A program made the translations under genes and the position numbers. 20,854 nucleotides of DNA from a virus: positions 1-20,854 of the IMG/VR virus record IMGVR_UViG_3300034198_002201. One strand, written 5' to 3'. Positions 1-16,194 of this stretch are shown one piece after another. A model generated the notes under the pieces. The model saw only the letters and a list, made by a program, of their open reading frames with translations, was not told where the DNA came from and did no database searches. Position 1 is the first letter of the stretch, and every line of letters begins with the position of its first letter.

Positions 1-1094
1 CGGTCGGTTTCCTCGGCTTGGGTGGCGAAGTTATCTTCGATACCCATCAACTTGCGGGATTCCTTGCTGGAGGCGTCGTACATACCTTTGCCCCCCTTCT
101 TCTTGTACTGAATGTTCTGCTTCGCGTACTGAAGGATTTGGTCCTGCATGTCAGGAGCAACACCCATCATCGTCAATTTGGAACGAGTAAGAGAGCCTGA
201 TGCAAACGCACTATCTACAAGTTTCTCGTTTGTTAGACCAGCGGACTTGACGATGTTCTGCATGACGGACTGCATGGAGTTCTGCTTGCCACCTACGCCA
301 ATAAGGCCACCGCCGCCCATGAGGAACATGCGGTTAGCAACAGGGGCGCTCGCTAGATTCTGAAGCATGTTGGCGGCGTCACCAGTTGATAGTGAGAAAC
401 CACTGTAGGTGCGCATTGCTTCAACGCTGGAAGCCTGTTGTGCGGCATTGATACCCGTGCGAGCCTGTAGACCCAGAAGGTCGTTGATACCACCCATACC
501 GAGGCGGTACTTGGTAAGGGGTTGGCGGTACTGATCCTGCACTTGCACTTGGCTCTTACCAGTCATTTGCTGATAGAGCACAGACATCCTGTCGGCGGAT
601 AGCGCGTAATCCCTACCTCTGTCTACCCGAGCGTCAATGACAGCCATCGCCTGCTGGACGGCGGCCGCCGCAACAGTCGCTCCCCTTGTTACGCCAGCGG
701 CGGTTATCCCACCACCGCCTCCACCACCGCCACCGAACTTGGACATCAAGTTCTTGATCATCCCCCCACCGCCGCCACCGCCACCGGGACCCGCGGGAGG
801 TGACGAGTTGCTGAAGGTGGCAACTGGGGTACTGCCGATGCTGGAGCCAGCACCGCCTGCGGATGGGCCTTGTACCGAACCTACAGCGGCAGCCGCTTTC
901 TTGGCCTCGGCCTCAACCGCTTGAAGTTCCTTGTGGAGTTTCTTCAGTTCCCCTGTGACAGACGCGAACGCACCACCAAGGTCTTTAACGCCCTTAACGT
1001 CTATGTTGAGACTCTGTGAGAGTCTGATCGCTTTGTTTAGTTTGGTCGCTTGTTGACCTGCCAAAGCGTCTTCATCTTGGGGAGGGGCCATCAT
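1..1094 (-). CDS. Tail tape-measure protein, N-terminal part (runs off the window)
   Basis: An uninterrupted frame of 364 codons opens at tandem ATG codons (1094 and 1091) and is still open at the left edge, so the C-terminus is missing. AAGGA lies just upstream. Residues 1-90 are charged and helix-rich (SLNIDVKGVKDLGGAF, then repeated K/E/A), which suits a coiled coil. Two pure glycine tracts, 8 residues at 104-111 and 9 at 121-129, flank the short segment MIKNLMSKF. Later residues are rich in Ala, Gln and Met. The position right after sheath, tube and tail assembly chaperone genes is where myoviruses keep the tape measure, which sets tail length and fills the tube lumen. The family call rests on gene order and composition, because no catalytic motif is expected. 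A different internal tail protein is possible but less likely. Confidence 0.72.
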   Translation of the reverse strand, partial: MMAPPQDEDALAGQQATKLNKAIRLSQSLNIDVKGVKDLGGAFASVTGELKKLHKELQAVEAEAKKAAAAVGSVQGPSAGGAGSSIGSTPVATFSNSSPPAGPGGGGGGGGMIKNLMSKFGGGGGGGGGITAAGVTRGATVAAAAVQQAMAVIDARVDRGRDYALSADRMSVLYQQMTGKSQVQVQDQYRQPLTKYRLGMGGINDLLGLQARTGINAAQQASSVEAMRTYSGFSLSTGDAANMLQNLASAPVANRMFLMGGGGLIGVGGKQNSMQSVMQNIVKSAGLTNEKLVDSAFASGSLTRSKLTMMGVAPDMQDQILQYAKQNIQYKKKGGKGMYDASSKESRKLMGIEDNFATQAEETD

Positions 1095-1100
1095 CAGTCC

Positions 1101-1295
1101 TTAGGTTTTGCGCCACCTAGCCATTTTAAACCAGTAGCGCCTCTGGCGAACAGTCATAGACTGAAGATCAGAAAGATTAAACCCATGGTAGACGGAGGCG
1201 ATCAGTTCGTATTCCCAGTACGTGTATTTTACATCAGCCAAATAGAAGGGACATCCAATTGAGATTAATGGGCATATCTTCCCCACAATGCGCAC
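1101..1295 (-). CDS. Second tail assembly chaperone frame (likely frameshift extension of the 1234-2034 gene)
   Basis: This frame overlaps the end of the preceding chaperone gene and ends 6 bases before the tape-measure start. Its only upstream initiator is a GTG at 1295; a TTG lies at 1241, and the first ATG is at about residue 29 of the frame. The part beyond the upstream stop, starting ADVKYTYWEYELIAS and ending in RQRRYWFKMARWRKT, is basic and aromatic and looks like real protein. Relative to the upstream gene it is in the +1 (equivalently -2) frame. Tailed phages commonly make a chaperone and a frameshifted longer form here (lambda G/GT, P2 E/E'); T4 uses separate gp26 and gp51. I infer that entry is by frameshift near 1234-1250, or by weak initiation at TTG 1241, which would give 46 residues. 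The exact slip site is not obvious. Confidence 0.55.
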   Translation of the reverse strand: MRIVGKICPLISIGCPFYLADVKYTYWEYELIASVYHGFNLSDLQSMTVRQRRYWFKMARWRKT

Positions 1296-2034
1296 ATTGG
1301 ACGTTCACCCCCTCCATCTTCGGACCCGCCTTGACTTCAAGGAGAGCCTTGATGAGTTTCCCGCGGTCAGCGAGAGAAAGGTTCTTAGCCCACTCTTCTG
1401 GAGTGGCTCCTGCCCTGTCTGCATCGGAGAGCAGAGCACAGCGTGAGAGCATGATGGTGTTCTGGGTCGCCGTTGATGACGAGTGCTTACCCACATAAGA
1501 ACTATCAGCCCCGGTTGGCATACGGAGGCGGATGAGGTTGCCCTTACGAAGGGTCACTTCCACGGGAGCATGGAGGTCGTGTTCTGGAACCTGTAGAGGA
1601 AAGTCTTCGTCTAGATCGACAACTACGTCATTCTTCTCGTTGCAGGAGCCGCAGCGCGCGATGTACTCGCGCTCCCTACCGTACGTGCACTTCACAATGC
1701 CAAGGAACAGTAGGTCACGGTCACCGATGGTGAGGTTCTCAACAACTTCCTTACTGTTAGCCGGTGTAAGTAAGTTGTTACCTATCCGAACGACCGCCCT
1801 ACTGAGCAGGGCTGTCATATAGTCGGCGTAAGTGACAGTGGCTTTTGTTTCAAGGCTCGCCAAGTACTCCTCATCAGCGCCCGTGAGTTCACGGACCTCT
1901 GCCTCGGTGTGCCATTCATTCGACACAGGGTCGTACACACCCCGTTGGAGTGTGACGATAGAGGGAAGTGGCAACCCTATTTCTGGTGCGTCTTCTTTAA
2001 GAAGGTTTTCAACGGAACCTTGTGTTGTACTCAT
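1234..2034 (-). CDS. Tail assembly chaperone / T4 gp26-like baseplate-hub protein
   Basis: This encodes 266 residues. The ATG at 2034 is preceded by AGGGAG at good spacing. Two CxxC pairs are visible: C128/C131 (RCGSCN) and C247/C250 (QCAHCGED), which could together bind a zinc ion. The middle (residues 100-140) reads as a helix followed by a short beta region after GIVKCTYGREREYIARC. In T4-like phages the gp26 family carries similar cysteine pairs and sits before the tape measure; I recall that resemblance and have not tested it by search. The gene lies 21 bases after the tube gene, and its last 20 codons overlap another frame that continues the coding potential to the tape-measure gene. Together these suggest a chaperone pair that binds the tape-measure protein during tail assembly. 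Confidence 0.65.
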   Translation of the reverse strand: MSTTQGSVENLLKEDAPEIGLPLPSIVTLQRGVYDPVSNEWHTEAEVRELTGADEEYLASLETKATVTYADYMTALLSRAVVRIGNNLLTPANSKEVVENLTIGDRDLLFLGIVKCTYGREREYIARCGSCNEKNDVVVDLDEDFPLQVPEHDLHAPVEVTLRKGNLIRLRMPTGADSSYVGKHSSSTATQNTIMLSRCALLSDADRAGATPEEWAKNLSLADRGKLIKALLEVKAGPKMEGVNVQCAHCGEDMPINLNWMSLLFG

Positions 2035-2055: not shown

Positions 2056-2661
2056 TCAACCAGTGAGGCTGGCGAGGCTTCCAACATCTTGTTCGTTCCA
2101 CGCTACCACAAACCCTTCGTGGTGGAGAACTAGTTGCTGGATCATGATACCACTATCACCAGCGTTTAGGTCGCTTACAGAGTAGGAGCCGGGGAAGCAG
2201 TCGAACAGTTTGAAACCCCAGCGGGCTGAGCCAAGGTTTTCCTTGGGGCCTGAAGGGGAACCGGGGGTAGCGTAGGAGCCAGACGAGATGGGGTGGTCAT
2301 ACACCTTGACCAGAACGTCACAACGGTAGTCGTTGTTGGTCGCAGTGCTGAGACCCGACGCTTGGTTCCACGCGTGGAGGAACTGCTGCCACTTGTAGAG
2401 TTGGTCTTGCTTCTCAAACACGCCGCGGCTGAGGGTCACTGGGGCGAAGTCTGACTGCCCAAGGAACTTGTGTGGGTGCGTGTTCATGCCACCTTCGCGG
2501 TAGCCCACCATCTCGTTGTTGACGGTGAGACCGGAAACGACAGCGAACCCAAGGTTACCCAAACCCTCAGTTGCCTTACCGAGGCCATCACCATTTGAAG
2601 TGATGATGGAAACTCGGAACTTAAAGTTACGGATAGGGTCTGTTTTTGCTGAACGGGCCAT
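2056..2661 (-). CDS. Tail tube protein (T4 gp19-like)
   Basis: This is a 201-residue protein and the expected partner of the sheath, whose gene ends 18 bases upstream. Typical tube features are present. RNFKFRVSI lies near the N-terminus, followed by GFAVVSGL, then YREGGMNTHPHKFLG (about residues 54-68), then VTLSRGVF; this succession is characteristic of the contractile-tail tube family. The C-terminal half carries WGFKLFDCFPGSYSVSDLNAG and ends in a beta hairpin. It forms the inner hexameric tube through which DNA passes after sheath contraction. The ATG at 2661 has AAAGGAGAA upstream with about 7 bases of spacing, which suits a highly translated structural gene. The family assignment is confident. 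Confidence 0.93.
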   Translation of the reverse strand: MARSAKTDPIRNFKFRVSIITSNGDGLGKATEGLGNLGFAVVSGLTVNNEMVGYREGGMNTHPHKFLGQSDFAPVTLSRGVFEKQDQLYKWQQFLHAWNQASGLSTATNNDYRCDVLVKVYDHPISSGSYATPGSPSGPKENLGSARWGFKLFDCFPGSYSVSDLNAGDSGIMIQQLVLHHEGFVVAWNEQDVGSLASLTG

Positions 2662-2679: not shown

Positions 2680-4194
2680 TCAGAGGGTTGACGCTGCGTT
2701 TGAGCCGCCAGTCCATTGGCTGACGGAGATGACGATGTACTCGGCTGGGTACTGGAGGGCTACGCCAACCTCTAGACGGACCTCACCTTGGGCGATGGTC
2801 TCGTCAGTGTTGTTGGTTTCGTCACAGATTATGTAGAACGCTTCGGCAGCGTTGCGCCCCTTGAGGCCACCCGCCCGCCAGAACTGGTTCAAGAAACTGG
2901 AAGAGCGGATTGACACCGAGGCCCACAGACGGTCGTCGTTAGGCTCAAACACGGCGTATGACGTAAGGTCCTTGAGGCCCTGCTTGACGTAGTTGAGCGA
3001 CCGACGGATCGGGATGTACTTACCGGGGGAGGTCTTATCAAGGGTGCGAGCACCGTTGATAATAATGCCACCACCGGGGACTGCCTTGAACACGTTCACA
3101 CCGTAGGTGTCATACAAGGTGCCTGCCTGTGCGGCGGTTGGCTTGGTGCCGTACAGACCGAAGGCGTTGCGAACGTCGGTGGTGAAACCGGCTGGGGCCT
3201 TTGCTACGGTGCGGGCTACTTCGGTACGAACGAACGCACCCATGACAGCGCCACCGGGGTAGGTGTCACGGATTGCGGCAGGACCGCTCTTGGCAGGGTC
3301 GGCCATCTTCAGCATCGGGTAGTACACCGCTGCGTAGGATGAGGACGTGTAGAGGTTGGCCACGGTTGAGCCGTAGTCGCTTGGTGCGGCGGTGGTGGGG
3401 TCGATTACCACGAAGGAGTTGCCACGTGACTCAGCCTTACCGATAAGCAGGTTGACAGTAGCGGTGTCAGTCACGCCGGGGGCGTTGATGAGGAGAACAC
3501 CTTCTAATGCCTCCAACTTGTCGGCAGCCGCTTGGTAGTCAACGGCAGCACCGCCGCTGGCCCCACCTGCGAGTGGTACAGCAGCAGTCGTATAGGGGAC
3601 CCACGTTGAGGCGGCGGTCTTGGCACCTGAGGGGACGGTAACGGTGATGAACTTGCTGAAGTTGTTCAGCACCGCCTCTAGGTATCGGTTATTGGAGGGG
3701 TCGGTTGATACCTCATTCCAGCGCTCAACCTCAACGCCGTTGAGGAGGATTGAGAGGTTGAAGGTTGGGATTTGGGTTGCCGTTGCAGCGGTGCCACCAG
3801 AGGTGGTCCGCAGTGAAAGGCTGTTGCCCCAAGTACCACGGCTGTTGGCGGTGCCGGTGAAGAGGCTGCCCGAGGCTGCGCCCGAGCCGTTGGGGTAGTA
3901 GGGCATAACAACCGAAGCAGCAGCCGCTGAGGCGTTGGTAGCGCGGATGATGTAAGCGTCGCGGCCACCGTTTGCAAAGTAGTGGTACACGCTGTAGGGC
4001 AGTTCGTAACCGGTCTCAGCGTCGTCGTAGTAGTTCTTGAATGCTGACCACGAGTTGATGAGGGTGGGTGTTTCTGGACCACGAGGGGCGGTGCCGATGA
4101 AGGCTGCGATTGACTGCGTGGTGTTTGAGCGGTTTACGTTCTGAACCAGTGGTGATTCTGATACGTATACACCGGGTACTGAATAGGTAGCCAT
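2680..4194 (-). CDS. Contractile tail sheath protein
   Basis: This encodes 504 residues, a usual sheath length. The N-terminus MATYSVPGVYVSES followed by AAFIGTAPRGPETPT is the standard sheath opening, in which the N-terminal arm links neighbouring subunits. The middle contains an Ala/Gly/Thr-rich, probably surface-exposed region (about residues 95-220). The C-terminal domain has the conserved series YIPIRRSLNYVKQGL, VFEPNDDRLW, FLNQFWRAGGLKGRNAAEAF and EYIVISVSQW. The sheath surrounds the tube and contracts to drive it into the cell. Its ATG shares one base with the stop of the preceding gene (TAATG), and GGAGGT lies inside that gene, so translation is likely coupled. Its presence identifies the phage as a myovirus. 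Confidence 0.97.
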   Translation of the reverse strand: MATYSVPGVYVSESPLVQNVNRSNTTQSIAAFIGTAPRGPETPTLINSWSAFKNYYDDAETGYELPYSVYHYFANGGRDAYIIRATNASAAAASVVMPYYPNGSGAASGSLFTGTANSRGTWGNSLSLRTTSGGTAATATQIPTFNLSILLNGVEVERWNEVSTDPSNNRYLEAVLNNFSKFITVTVPSGAKTAASTWVPYTTAAVPLAGGASGGAAVDYQAAADKLEALEGVLLINAPGVTDTATVNLLIGKAESRGNSFVVIDPTTAAPSDYGSTVANLYTSSSYAAVYYPMLKMADPAKSGPAAIRDTYPGGAVMGAFVRTEVARTVAKAPAGFTTDVRNAFGLYGTKPTAAQAGTLYDTYGVNVFKAVPGGGIIINGARTLDKTSPGKYIPIRRSLNYVKQGLKDLTSYAVFEPNDDRLWASVSIRSSSFLNQFWRAGGLKGRNAAEAFYIICDETNNTDETIAQGEVRLEVGVALQYPAEYIVISVSQWTGGSNAASTL

Positions 4195-8338: not shown

Positions 8339-8881
8339 TTATACGTAGAACTGGTTTAGGAGGATTGAGTTGGCGGGGCCAGTTGGACCGGTCGGGCCTG
8401 TGGAGCCGGTGGCTCCGGTAGCGCCCCGAGGGAGGGAGAAGTTGAACACAGCAGCGGTGCTGGTACCTGAGTTTGTTACCGATGCAGAAGCCCCACTAGT
8501 TACTGTGCCCACAGTGATAGTTGGCGAGGGTCCGATGGGGCCTCGTGGTCCGGTGGGTCCGGGGTTACCAATGAATGAGTAGGACTGGCCCCAATCACCG
8601 TATGCCTTTGGGCCGTAGTAACGGGAGTTCAGGGTGTCCAAGTAGAAGTCGCGGTTAGAACCAAGGGAGTTCGACGGAGCGCCCTCACCGGAGTACCAAG
8701 TGGCACCAGTAGAACTGGCCCCAATTTCTGCGAGAATCGCCTCAACGGTGGTGCCGTTATAGAACCCGCCAGCGTCTGCTACAGAAACCGAGGCGGCGGT
8801 AACTGGGTTAGCCGAGATGGTTACCGAGGAGGTCGTTGAGGTTGATGAAAGCCCTGACCCTATTACAAGTTCACGAGACAT
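8339..8881 (-). CDS. Collagen-like virion fibre protein
   Basis: This encodes 180 residues. Two Gly-X-Y blocks are evident: GNPGPTGPRGPIGP (about residues 109-122) and GATGATGSTGPTGPTGP near the C-terminus. Between them lies a beta segment, TVGTVTSGASASVTNSG then FNFSLPRG, which is a common spacer in phage collagen-like proteins. The N-terminal part is beta-rich with DFYLDTLNSRYYGPKAYGDWG, another phrase typical of phage and bacterial collagen-like fibres. Gly-X-Y blocks suggest a trimeric triple helix, so this is likely a fibre or whisker shaft. It ends 16 bases before the beta-sandwich protein gene, and its stop is part of that gene's ribosome-binding region. Confidence 0.85.
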   Translation of the reverse strand: MSRELVIGSGLSSTSTTSSVTISANPVTAASVSVADAGGFYNGTTVEAILAEIGASSTGATWYSGEGAPSNSLGSNRDFYLDTLNSRYYGPKAYGDWGQSYSFIGNPGPTGPRGPIGPSPTITVGTVTSGASASVTNSGTSTAAVFNFSLPRGATGATGSTGPTGPTGPANSILLNQFYV

Positions 8882-14538: not shown

Positions 14539-14845
14539 AATGTACAAAGGGCGTAACCTTCTTTACCATACCAGTGGGTATGTGTATTGGATTGGAGATT
14601 ATTAGTCGGTTGTTGTCGTCATAGAAGTACGATGAACACACACTCGTGTGCCCAACCATGAAGTCCTTCATGAGAAACCCGACAGTAACGGGTGAGACAC
14701 CGGTTGGAGAGTAGTCGTCGTAGGACACCCAACCTTGGGGACCGTCAAACGCATCAATCCAGCGAACCTCAACTAGGGCCAAGTGTTGGGGAGAAGACTC
14801 TTCCTTGGTAGAAGGCCCTTCGGTTATGAATTGCGATCTGTTCAT
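14537..14845 (-). CDS. Small conserved-type phage protein, function unknown
   Basis: I choose the ATG at 14845, giving 102 residues from MNRSQFITEGPS, because upstream codons of the frame lie inside the phosphoesterase gene and look like shadow sequence. The overlap with that gene is 77 bases. The body reads VRWIDAFDGPQGWVSYDDY, then VSPVTVGFLMKDFMVGHTSV, and closes with NPIHIPTGMVKKVTPF. A W-x-D-A start followed by a tV-Gf-l strand and an I-P final strand is a pattern I associate with small phage proteins of unknown function in structural or regulatory regions. It lies just before the portal. No catalytic residues are evident. Confidence 0.65.
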   Translation of the reverse strand: MNRSQFITEGPSTKEESSPQHLALVEVRWIDAFDGPQGWVSYDDYSPTGVSPVTVGFLMKDFMVGHTSVCSSYFYDDNNRLIISNPIHIPTGMVKKVTPFVH

Positions 14846-15932
14846 ACCAGAACTCACCGTCCCCCTCCTCGTAGTTGATGACGGCCAAACCCTGCTGCCA
14901 GTCTTCCACAATAGTGAGAGGGCGACCATCCAGATCAATCCCACCCTTTGTAGAAGGCACTGCTCCCGAGCACTTCGCTAGTGTGCCGGGGGACGCGGCC
15001 ATAATAGTTTTGGCTCCGTCCCAGTCTTCCCTGCTCTTTTCTGCCCACTCCCTGCGGTGGATGTGTCCGTAAACCACGGATGTTTTTTGAGAGTTGAGGT
15101 ACGCGTGTGCTGTCGATCCGTTCGATCTGACTTTGTCTCCATGAATGATTCGTAGACGCTGGTTAATCCAGACTTGACCAGCAGGGTAGCCCGGTACATA
15201 ATTAATATCGTAACTATCAAACCTACAAAGGTAAGGAACGCTGAGAACCGGCCACCCTTCTGGCGTGTTCCCGCGCTTAAGTCCCATGGCTGCCTTGGCG
15301 TTGTCGATGACATAGTTAACGAGCCTTTCTTCGTGGTTACCGGAAATCCAGTAAATCACGGCGTTAGGTGCTGCTGCTCGTAACTGGGCGCAAAGCGTCG
15401 TTGCTCTATCAATGGAGGCTTGCGTGGTCAAAGCGTAAGCGTTACTTAGCCGGTATCGTCCGAACTCAGGTAGGTCAAGGTTGTCCCCGACCATGACGAT
15501 CATATCCGGATTTACTTGTGCTGTTATCTTAAGGGCGATATCCATAGCCTCTTCGTCGTGGGTGCTCTCCAAGTCCCCAGCAGCGTTGCGGTAGTACCCG
15601 ATCTGCATGTCGGGGAGAACCACGCAAGTCTTGAAGTCTGACTTGGAGGCTTTGACCTTGGTCGGGGGTACCTTCACAACAGGCCCCGGTTGCACAACCG
15701 GCCACTCAGGACCCGACTCAAACTTGGGGCTTATCTGGATGCCGAACAAGTCATGTATCTCAGCCTCACCAGCGTCGTTCTTGGTGAGCGACTGGTAGAC
15801 AGACACCCTCTTGATTTCCCCGACCTCATCGGGGTCGATGTTGTTGCGCGCTAGAAGTTCAGCAATCTTGCCGAGGGCGTAGCGCCCCGCGTTACCAGTA
15901 CTCAAGTCTTTGGTCAGATCACTGGCAGCCAC
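14769..15932 (-). CDS. Calcineurin-like metallophosphoesterase
   Basis: I choose the GTG at 15932 (387 residues), because AAGGGG sits 5 bases before it; a TTG at 15956 would add 8 residues. The first 95 residues form a separate N-terminal part (GRYALGKIAELLARNNIDPD). The phosphoesterase core carries the standard metal ligands: D108 in LPDMQ, GDN (149-151), GNHEE (198-202), HGD (264-266) and GHIHR (289-293). Motif I is D-x-Q rather than the usual D-x-H, so one ligand is altered. Likely substrates are nucleic acid or phosphoesters; none can be assigned. Its place between terminase and portal suggests a link to packaging or DNA processing, but this is an inference. The C-terminus (EGDGEFWYEQIAIHNRRAF) overlaps the next gene. 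Confidence 0.9.
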   Translation of the reverse strand: MAASDLTKDLSTGNAGRYALGKIAELLARNNIDPDEVGEIKRVSVYQSLTKNDAGEAEIHDLFGIQISPKFESGPEWPVVQPGPVVKVPPTKVKASKSDFKTCVVLPDMQIGYYRNAAGDLESTHDEEAMDIALKITAQVNPDMIVMVGDNLDLPEFGRYRLSNAYALTTQASIDRATTLCAQLRAAAPNAVIYWISGNHEERLVNYVIDNAKAAMGLKRGNTPEGWPVLSVPYLCRFDSYDINYVPGYPAGQVWINQRLRIIHGDKVRSNGSTAHAYLNSQKTSVVYGHIHRREWAEKSREDWDGAKTIMAASPGTLAKCSGAVPSTKGGIDLDGRPLTIVEDWQQGLAVINYEEGDGEFWYEQIAIHNRRAFYQGRVFSPTLGPS

Positions 15933-16194
15933 ATTTGCCCCTTGCGTGACGACCAATGGTGCTTGTGCTGATTTGGTGACCGTGCTTGTTCAGCACATCG
16001 GACAACCACTCGTACGAGTACACCTTGGCCCGCCCTACCCCGCGATCTTCTTTGATAAGGGCCATGGCGTTGGTTAGCGCCTCTGATTCCTCTGGAGTCA
16101 TAGCCTGCTGTATCAGTGAGAAGGTGCAGGGGATGCGGGTTTCAGAGGAGTCTCTTGTAGTCAGGTCATGCACCAGACTGGGTGCGGTGGTCAT
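15919..16194 (-). CDS. Small HTH DNA-binding protein
   Basis: This encodes 91 residues from an ATG at 16194 with GGAG about 7 bases upstream. The C-terminal half shows an HTH-like order: YSYEWLSDVLNKHGH, then a turn, ISTSTIGRHARGKCGC, with the second helix carrying the recognition residues. The same layout (W-L-x-x-x-L then S-x-x-T-I-x-R-H-x-x-x-x-C-x-C) is familiar from small actinophage proteins near the terminase genes. The first half (SLIQQAMTPEESEALTNAMA) is helical. Possible roles are transcription control of the late genes or DNA recognition for packaging. The last codons overlap the phosphoesterase start by 14 bases. Confidence 0.75.
   Translation of the reverse strand: MTTAPSLVHDLTTRDSSETRIPCTFSLIQQAMTPEESEALTNAMALIKEDRGVGRAKVYSYEWLSDVLNKHGHQISTSTIGRHARGKCGCQ
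15938..15943 (-). promoter_or_regulatory. Ribosome-binding site that decides the phosphoesterase start
   Basis: AAGGGG on the minus strand stands 5 bases before GTG 15932. The alternative TTG at 15956 has no comparable site, so the shorter protein is preferred. Confidence 0.65.

Follow-up and report, generated by a model that had tools for sequence, protein, structure and literature searches.

The tail assembly chaperone gene in the window, by which we mean the whole 20,854-nt stretch of an IMG/VR virus record analyzed here, belongs to the T4 gp26 type and very probably ends in a programmed +1 ribosomal frameshift. The initial annotation had suspected a product arising from a +1 or -2 shift, and this suspicion gained support from a slip motif, an RNA stem and a second reading frame without a conserved start codon, all of them derived from sequence comparison, with no peptide, reporter or ribosome-profiling data. 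On the same grounds, the slip most likely occurs one base forward at CTT|C (positions 1248-1245), which would yield a long chaperone form of 310 residues.

A second reading frame behind the chaperone gene

The late genes of the window lie on the minus strand, where a tail sheath gene (2680..4194; phrog_23, 1.5e-46; Phage_sheath_1C) and a tail tube gene of the T4 gp19 family (2056..2661; PF06841, 75.7 bits) are followed by the short form of the chaperone (TAC-N, 266 aa, T4 gp26/gp51-like; 1234..2034), the extension (1101..1244) and the start of a tape-measure-like gene that runs off the window (3..1094). This order, sheath-tube-TAC-extension-TMP, is the same as in Streptomyces phage BRock, and both in the window and in the BRock group the chaperone gene is placed between those of the tail tube and the tape measure. 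The chaperone matched PF12322 (T4_baseplate) with 35.1 bits (cut-off 24.5), a family that is also matched by the chaperones of relatives, and phrog_150 with 6e-14. An AlphaFold model, calculated for the unmodified short form only, had a pLDDT of 87.6; its comparison with BFVD (Foldseek) retrieved T4-like baseplate-hub/gp26 models with E down to 8e-32, and a PDB fold search with the same model matched no solved structure. The tape-measure-like gene had no family match of its own in PHROG/Pfam-type profile comparison and was assigned because it comes immediately behind the extension, an arrangement also seen in the BRock group; the N-terminal part of its product contains two glycine runs of 8-9 residues (700-800). 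Elsewhere in the window, a putative tail fibre protein with collagen-like Gly-X-Y repeats is encoded at 8339-8881, and a Metallo-phosphoesterase (phrog_20266, 1e-78), for which a TTG start is listed, lies between the portal and terminase genes (14769-15956). No tRNA genes were present in the window.

The chaperone ORF (2034-1234) ends with TGA at 1236-1234. A second frame, +1 (equivalently -2) with respect to the chaperone, is open from a TGA upstream of 1295 to a stop whose last base is 1101, and contains YTYWEYELIASVYHGFNLSDLQSMTVRQRRYWFKMARWRKT; the tape-measure ORF begins shortly afterwards, at 1094. The only upstream ATG, GTG or TTG codons of this second frame are GTG 1295, GTG 1286, and TTG 1241, and an ATG first appears in it at residue 29 if counting begins at TTG 1241, or at residue 47 from GTG 1295. 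The initial annotation had noted this coding-like frame reaching from the chaperone stop to the tape-measure gene, with GTG 1295 and TTG 1241 in frame and no ATG before residue 29; the sequence and its relatives bear this out, with GTG 1286 to be added. The extent given for it, 1101-1295, stands only from the slip (about 1248) onward, since as a unit it is merely a mechanical GTG-to-stop ORF. Read from TAT 1244, the extension has 47 residues before its stop. The codon-position entropy in this frame (0.75/0.56/1.31 bits) has the periodicity expected of a coding sequence, and, because the frame is also conserved as protein, its sequence marks it as more than a chance opening.

We assembled 244 related loci, 178 of them distinct (the window and 177 others), from IMG/VR, six Streptomyces phage records and actinobacterial prophages, using scans with tube, sheath and chaperone queries. 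As the loci are related, locus counts do not represent independent events; at 70% protein identity, the loci with CTT at the slip site formed 30 clusters (first-round set). The extension was in the +1 frame in 74 of 74 first-round distinct loci and in 170 of 175 second-round loci, the other five second-round candidates having no extension match and being left out; among the loci examined it was never in frame or in the -1 frame. P0001 relatives with the same gene order were found in the six Streptomyces phage records, namely BRock (two records), LuckySocke, Alone3, pSt2308, and GiJojo. Eight actinobacterial genome loci carry related terminase and major head genes, mostly near the chaperone, and were therefore read as prophages of the same kind. 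These prophage-like regions (L341-L348; Saccharothrix, Streptomyces, Nonomuraea, Actinomadura, and Terracoccus according to GTDB) belong to the same contractile lineage and encode a 46-54% identical terminase, a major head protein, sheath, tube, and chaperone with +1 extension. The matches to the major head gene are split into several separate pieces in G002, G004, and G005, perhaps owing to inteins, introns or decay.

The comparison further demonstrates that the extension has no conserved start. Between the upstream stop and a point 27 nt past the chaperone stop, the extension frame contains neither ATG, GTG nor TTG in 63 of the 178 distinct loci, and ATG occurs there in 18/178; no start-codon position is common to more than 39 of the 178. 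The annotated extension starts of the Streptomyces phages (TTG 3776, ATG 3824, TTG 3779, and none) fall at unrelated places. Since no start is conserved, many loci have none at all and the annotated ones disagree, the extension is unlikely to be a separate gene. A conserved start codon in relatives had been named in advance as an observation that would refute the frameshift, and the alignment yielded none. Initiation of a separate protein at GTG 1295 or TTG 1241, the weak TTG being the alternative raised in the initial annotation, is highly improbable for these reasons. Both codons are in frame, and a Shine-Dalgarno-like GGAGGGGGTGA lies shortly upstream of GTG 1295, but a TTG at the position of 1241 is limited to 24 of the 107 close relatives, and in most relatives a +1-frame stop closes the frame between the purine-rich element and the slip, so that the element would be useless for such a start and initiation at GTG 1295 from it was rejected. 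An NTG in the third frame that is well spaced from the same element opens no conserved ORF, as judged by eye.

The inferred slip site and alternative routes into the second frame

Upstream, a stop closes the +1 frame at a median distance of 32 nt (minimum 14) from the chaperone stop, which confines the change of frame to the last few codons of the gene. In this interval, the conserved slip site sought by alignment was found: every distinct locus has either CTT-Y (107/178) or TTT-C (71/178), and none is without either. In the first group (group A), CTT YTA Y is invariant in all 107 distinct loci, usually with TCC or TCA before it; the window is a member (positions 1248-1243). In the 71 loci of group B, TTT C lies two or three codons ahead of the final ones and is followed by CGT or CGC in 64; the isolated phage BRock (GenBank KX925554) has TTT CGC. 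The CTT codon ranked first of 162 codon columns for synonymous constraint, with 5.3 times the expected identity, and is present at the site in 107/107 loci although CTT makes up 27% of the Leu codons in these genes. The constraint on YTA can be explained by the Tyr (TAY) conserved in the +1 frame. By contrast with the slip codon, the last sense codon varies, being GGY, AGY, GCC, GTC or GAC in group A and CTA, ATA, TTC, CTC or others in group B, as do the stop (TAA, TGA or TAG) and the base after it, which argues that the stop is not the site.

On this comparison and on the synonymous constraint, the slip site was placed at CTT|C (1245..1248, minus strand), with three sense codons between the slip codon and the 0-frame TGA of the short form (1234..1236). 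Most ribosomes would translate CTT CTA TTT GGC TGA in the 0 frame and terminate, yielding the short form of 266 residues. In a minority of them, the P-site Leu-tRNA on CTT, with a less-used Leu codon, CTA, next to be decoded in the A site, would move one base forward onto TTC, after which TAT, the codon now in the A site, would be read, followed by TTG GCT GAT and so on to 1101. The predicted long form of 310 residues would have the junction ...NWMSL|YLADVKYTYWEYEL... (...NWMSL|YLADVK...), and the corresponding trans-frame peptide would be ...MPINLNWMSLYLADVK. At CTT-Y sites, P-site Leu-tRNA may thus re-pair with TTY, as in RF2, and at TTT-C sites Phe-tRNA may re-pair with TTC, as in influenza PA-X. 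That the shift occurs, and its direction and rate, are inferences from this pattern.

Several known types of site did not fit the window. It meets one feature of the prfB type, CTT in the P site (1248-1246), but has CTA instead of an A-site stop and no Shine-Dalgarno element 3 nt upstream, its purine-rich element being about 60 nt away; stimulation by such an element at the prfB distance was rejected accordingly. The TTT CGN type known from PA-X and HF1 is absent at the shift of the window, which has CTT CTA, and recurs as TTT CGY in group B. The absence of the usual -1 heptamer, pointed out in the initial annotation, is matched by the absence of -1 geometry (XXXYYYZ), as the second frame is +1 in all loci and never -1. 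Transcriptional slippage was discarded, the junction having no homopolymer run.

The same second frame could also be entered by other routes. A -2 shift at this place, as used by phage Mu (PMC5009743), would lead to an identical frame: the tRNA of CTA would move back two bases to TTC, and TAT would be read next, giving ...SLLYLADVK with one extra residue. In group A such re-pairing of Leu-tRNA from TTA to TTY retains two base pairs, but in the 71 TTT-C relatives it would be the Arg-tRNA of CGY that has to pair with TTC, which is implausible, whereas both groups allow good re-pairing after a +1 step; moreover, the 3' structure that usually helps backward shifts is missing. We regard the -2 route as very unlikely. 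Slippage at the stop codon itself (GGC|TGA), with ...SLLFGDVK as the product, might be considered because A-site stops stimulate +1 shifts (RF2, PMC5009743) and a stop comes soon after the slip motif. There is scarcely any room for it, however, given that the last sense codon varies and re-pairing there is poor, that all three stops are used, and that the constraint peaks at CTT instead. An assembly or sequencing error, or a decaying gene, can be dismissed, as the frame relation is unchanged across the 244 loci, which stem from independent metagenomes, from isolates and from prophages; the junction itself is identical in two contigs from other metagenomes and nearly identical in a third, which rules out an assembly error. 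This leaves the +1 step at CTT|C as the preferred route.

A conserved hairpin that closes over the slip codon

An alignment of relatives was also expected to reveal an RNA stem at the slip site. A conserved stem is indeed present, and it lies 5' of the slip; no downstream structure was detected (mean z +0.9 over 60 nt 3' of the site). The hairpin, which was missed in the initial annotation and is supported by compensatory changes and protein-preserving shuffles of the sequences, spans 1313-1245 on the minus strand and is closed by the invariant slip codon. Its purine-rich 5' arm (1296..1313) carries the Shine-Dalgarno-like AGGGGGTGAACGTCCAAT and includes a GTG codon, 60 nt upstream of the slip, that ranked second of 162 codon columns for constraint; the purine-rich stretch is kept though the encoded residues vary (EGV, GEV, EEV, EAV, REV, even GGG). 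The 3' arm (1245..1259) contains the slip codon. A Shine-Dalgarno-like GGAGGGGGTGA (1316-1304), located inside the chaperone gene and conserved in relatives, pairs in the hairpin; there are no ribosome-binding data for it.

The 5' arm pairs as AGGUGA with UCACUU or, in a shifted register, as GGGG with UCCC, and the codon before the slip changes in step: TCC is accompanied by an upstream GGGG in 28 of 34 cases, and TCA lacks one in 25 of 31. In the inner helix (alignment A2, columns 14-22 with 59-67), 89.1% of cells are paired, as compared with 14-42% when the strands are slid, and two-sided changes number 41 versus 18.0 in shuffles. On the tree, the 21-60 pair shows three to five joint changes and no opposing one (p 0.06-0.25), which is not enough for significance by itself; few independent events likewise underlie the covariation of TCC with GGGG in the outer helix. 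When compared with shuffles that preserve the protein and the codon set, the window had z = -3.7, and the last 84 nt of the gene had a mean z of -2.0, other parts of the gene ranging from -0.3 to -1.2. The signal was found in group A (z -1.9) and group B (-2.2), with control regions at -0.8 and -0.4, and was weaker in the Streptomyces/actinobacterial subset (z -1.35).

With the slip codon in the P site and about 15 nt upstream assumed to be covered, we calculated that zipping of the hairpin up to the slip codon gains a mean of 11.4 (group A) and 9.1 (group B) kcal/mol, more than in shuffles (z -1.9 and -1.4). The hairpin could thus fold partly outside the mRNA exit channel, zip behind the ribosome and promote the forward step; such a pull on the mRNA upon refolding, an inference by analogy with T4 gene 60, may contribute to the shift. 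Only tentatively do we propose that a 5' hairpin sequestering the slip codon acts by refolding as the main stimulator of +1 shifting across a large group of contractile phages, in CUU-YUA and UUU-CGY versions. The hairpin might instead serve another role, for instance in the cleavage of late mRNA by RNase III or in hiding the purine-rich element from ribosomes, and itself constrain CTT, which would leave the frameshift standing. It does close over the slip codon and mask its Shine-Dalgarno-like arm, and with CTT in the P site its 3' arm is inside the ribosome, so that only the upper part can fold. Part of the constraint on CTT may come from RNA structure, CTT being paired in the hairpin too. 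Nevertheless, the hairpin occupies an equivalent position in both groups even though their slip codons differ, and CTC, which could pair in the many loci where the partner is G, was never found, which favours the slip. A different role of the hairpin consequently appears unlikely, though it cannot be set aside, and we retain stimulation by refolding as a working proposal. No Rfam family was matched.

Relation to other tail chaperones and frameshift sites

T4 encodes two proteins, gp26 (208 aa) and gp51 (249 aa), that both match PF12322 over about 200 residues, and gp51 carries about 48 extra C-terminal residues relative to the gp26-type domain. In global mode, profile comparison aligned the fused protein with gp51 to its end, whereas local mode covered the N domain only. 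The extension alone gave a weak match to the gp51 tail (hhalign P 0.003 over 20 columns, FNLSDLQSMTVRQR with YSLNSISKMIPAER), and in a HMMER single-profile search against T4 gp51 it did not rise above shuffled tails. The protein family is the same, with gp26 resembling the short form and gp51 the N domain plus a tail of about 48 residues, but T4 uses two genes and no frameshift; the frameshift in the window probably makes the pair that T4 encodes separately. According to PMC5009743, T4 is the exception to G-T frameshifting; a paper that appeared in Virology in 2022 (Vladimirov et al., cited in PMC12846349) proposes, judging by its title, another mechanism for T4-like phages. The T4 gp26 family would thus join the frameshifting chaperones, as one family with two solutions.

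Among the closest known systems is the lambda gpG/gpGT pair, attributed to Xu, Hendrix and Duda 2004 in the papers that cite it (PMC7230728; PMC5009743). The position between tube and tape measure genes, a short form with a rarer, C-terminally extended one, and a startless extension are alike; lambda, however, shifts by -1 at a slippery heptamer, whereas here the step would be +1 at CTT-C without a heptamer, and the present chaperone is of the T4 gp26 family with zinc-ribbon-like cysteines. What the two products do is inferred by transfer from lambda: the short part would form a coat on the tape measure, and the tail tube would be recruited by the added domain. Vandenendeviridae and Andersonviridae also have a long form of a myovirus tail chaperone recognized by the same comparative inference, but with a -1 shift at GTTTTT (PMC12846349).

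Frameshifted tail chaperones are mostly of the -1 type, with -2 in Mu and +1 in haloviruses (PMC5009743). The remark in the initial annotation that a +1 type would be unusual is thus fair for phages generally, but +1 chaperone shifts have already been proposed for the haloviruses HSTV-2 and HF1/HF2 (PMC5009743, PMC8211752, PMC7230728), and TTT-CGC has been noted at the chaperone junction of the HF1 group (PMC7230728). On re-reading the sequences, we found TTT CGC AGA in both HSTV-2 (L167, 15489-15515) and HF2 (L168, near 31341). These haloviruses share the contractile tail, the gene position, the +1 frame and, in TTT CGC, the group B motif, but their hosts are archaeal and the window uses CTT CTA; chaperones of the HF1/HF2/HSTV-2 type did not match PF12322. 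Taken by themselves, the upstream folds of the haloviruses did not reach significance (z about -1.1 to -1.2); that predicted for HF2 likewise has the slip paired, with a GCGGAG stretch, at a z of only -1.2.

Outside tail chaperones, a +1 shift at UCC_UUU_CGU was proven by mass spectrometry for influenza A PA-X (PMC3498833), where the P-site slip at UUU-C is as in group B relatives but the host is eukaryotic, the window having CTT-C. The RF2 site slips from CUU to UUU (PMC5009743); the prfB (release factor 2) site and that of the window have in common the re-pairing of Leu-tRNA from CUU to UUU/UUC and differ in that the latter has neither an A-site stop nor a Shine-Dalgarno element 3 nt upstream. 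For T4 gene 60, zipping of a 5' stem-loop was proposed to pull the mRNA (PMC5009743, section 36). Alike is only this 5' stem-loop, partly formed outside the exit channel with its zipping finished as the mRNA emerges, whereas gene 60 makes a 50-base jump rather than a one-base shift and the slip codon of the window belongs to the closing strand.

Longer chaperone forms are known from other phages; the skip site and hairpin found here appear undescribed, as no report of the CTT-YTA version, the 5' hairpin or a +1 shift in the gp26 family was found in the open-access literature searched (subscription papers being outside the scope of the search). Stimulation of +1 frameshifting by 5' mRNA structure is mentioned with only a 'perhaps' in the main review (PMC5009743); the present site, which exists in 178 natural variants with either of two interchangeable slip codons and a conserved stem-loop on its 5' side, makes it testable with a short reporter. 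Furthermore, the analysis corrects the annotation of the Streptomyces BRock group: in BRock, LuckySocke, Alone3, pSt2308, and GiJojo (L005-L009), the extension is either listed as a hypothetical protein of its own, its starts being inconsistent, or missed altogether, and the shift is unannotated.
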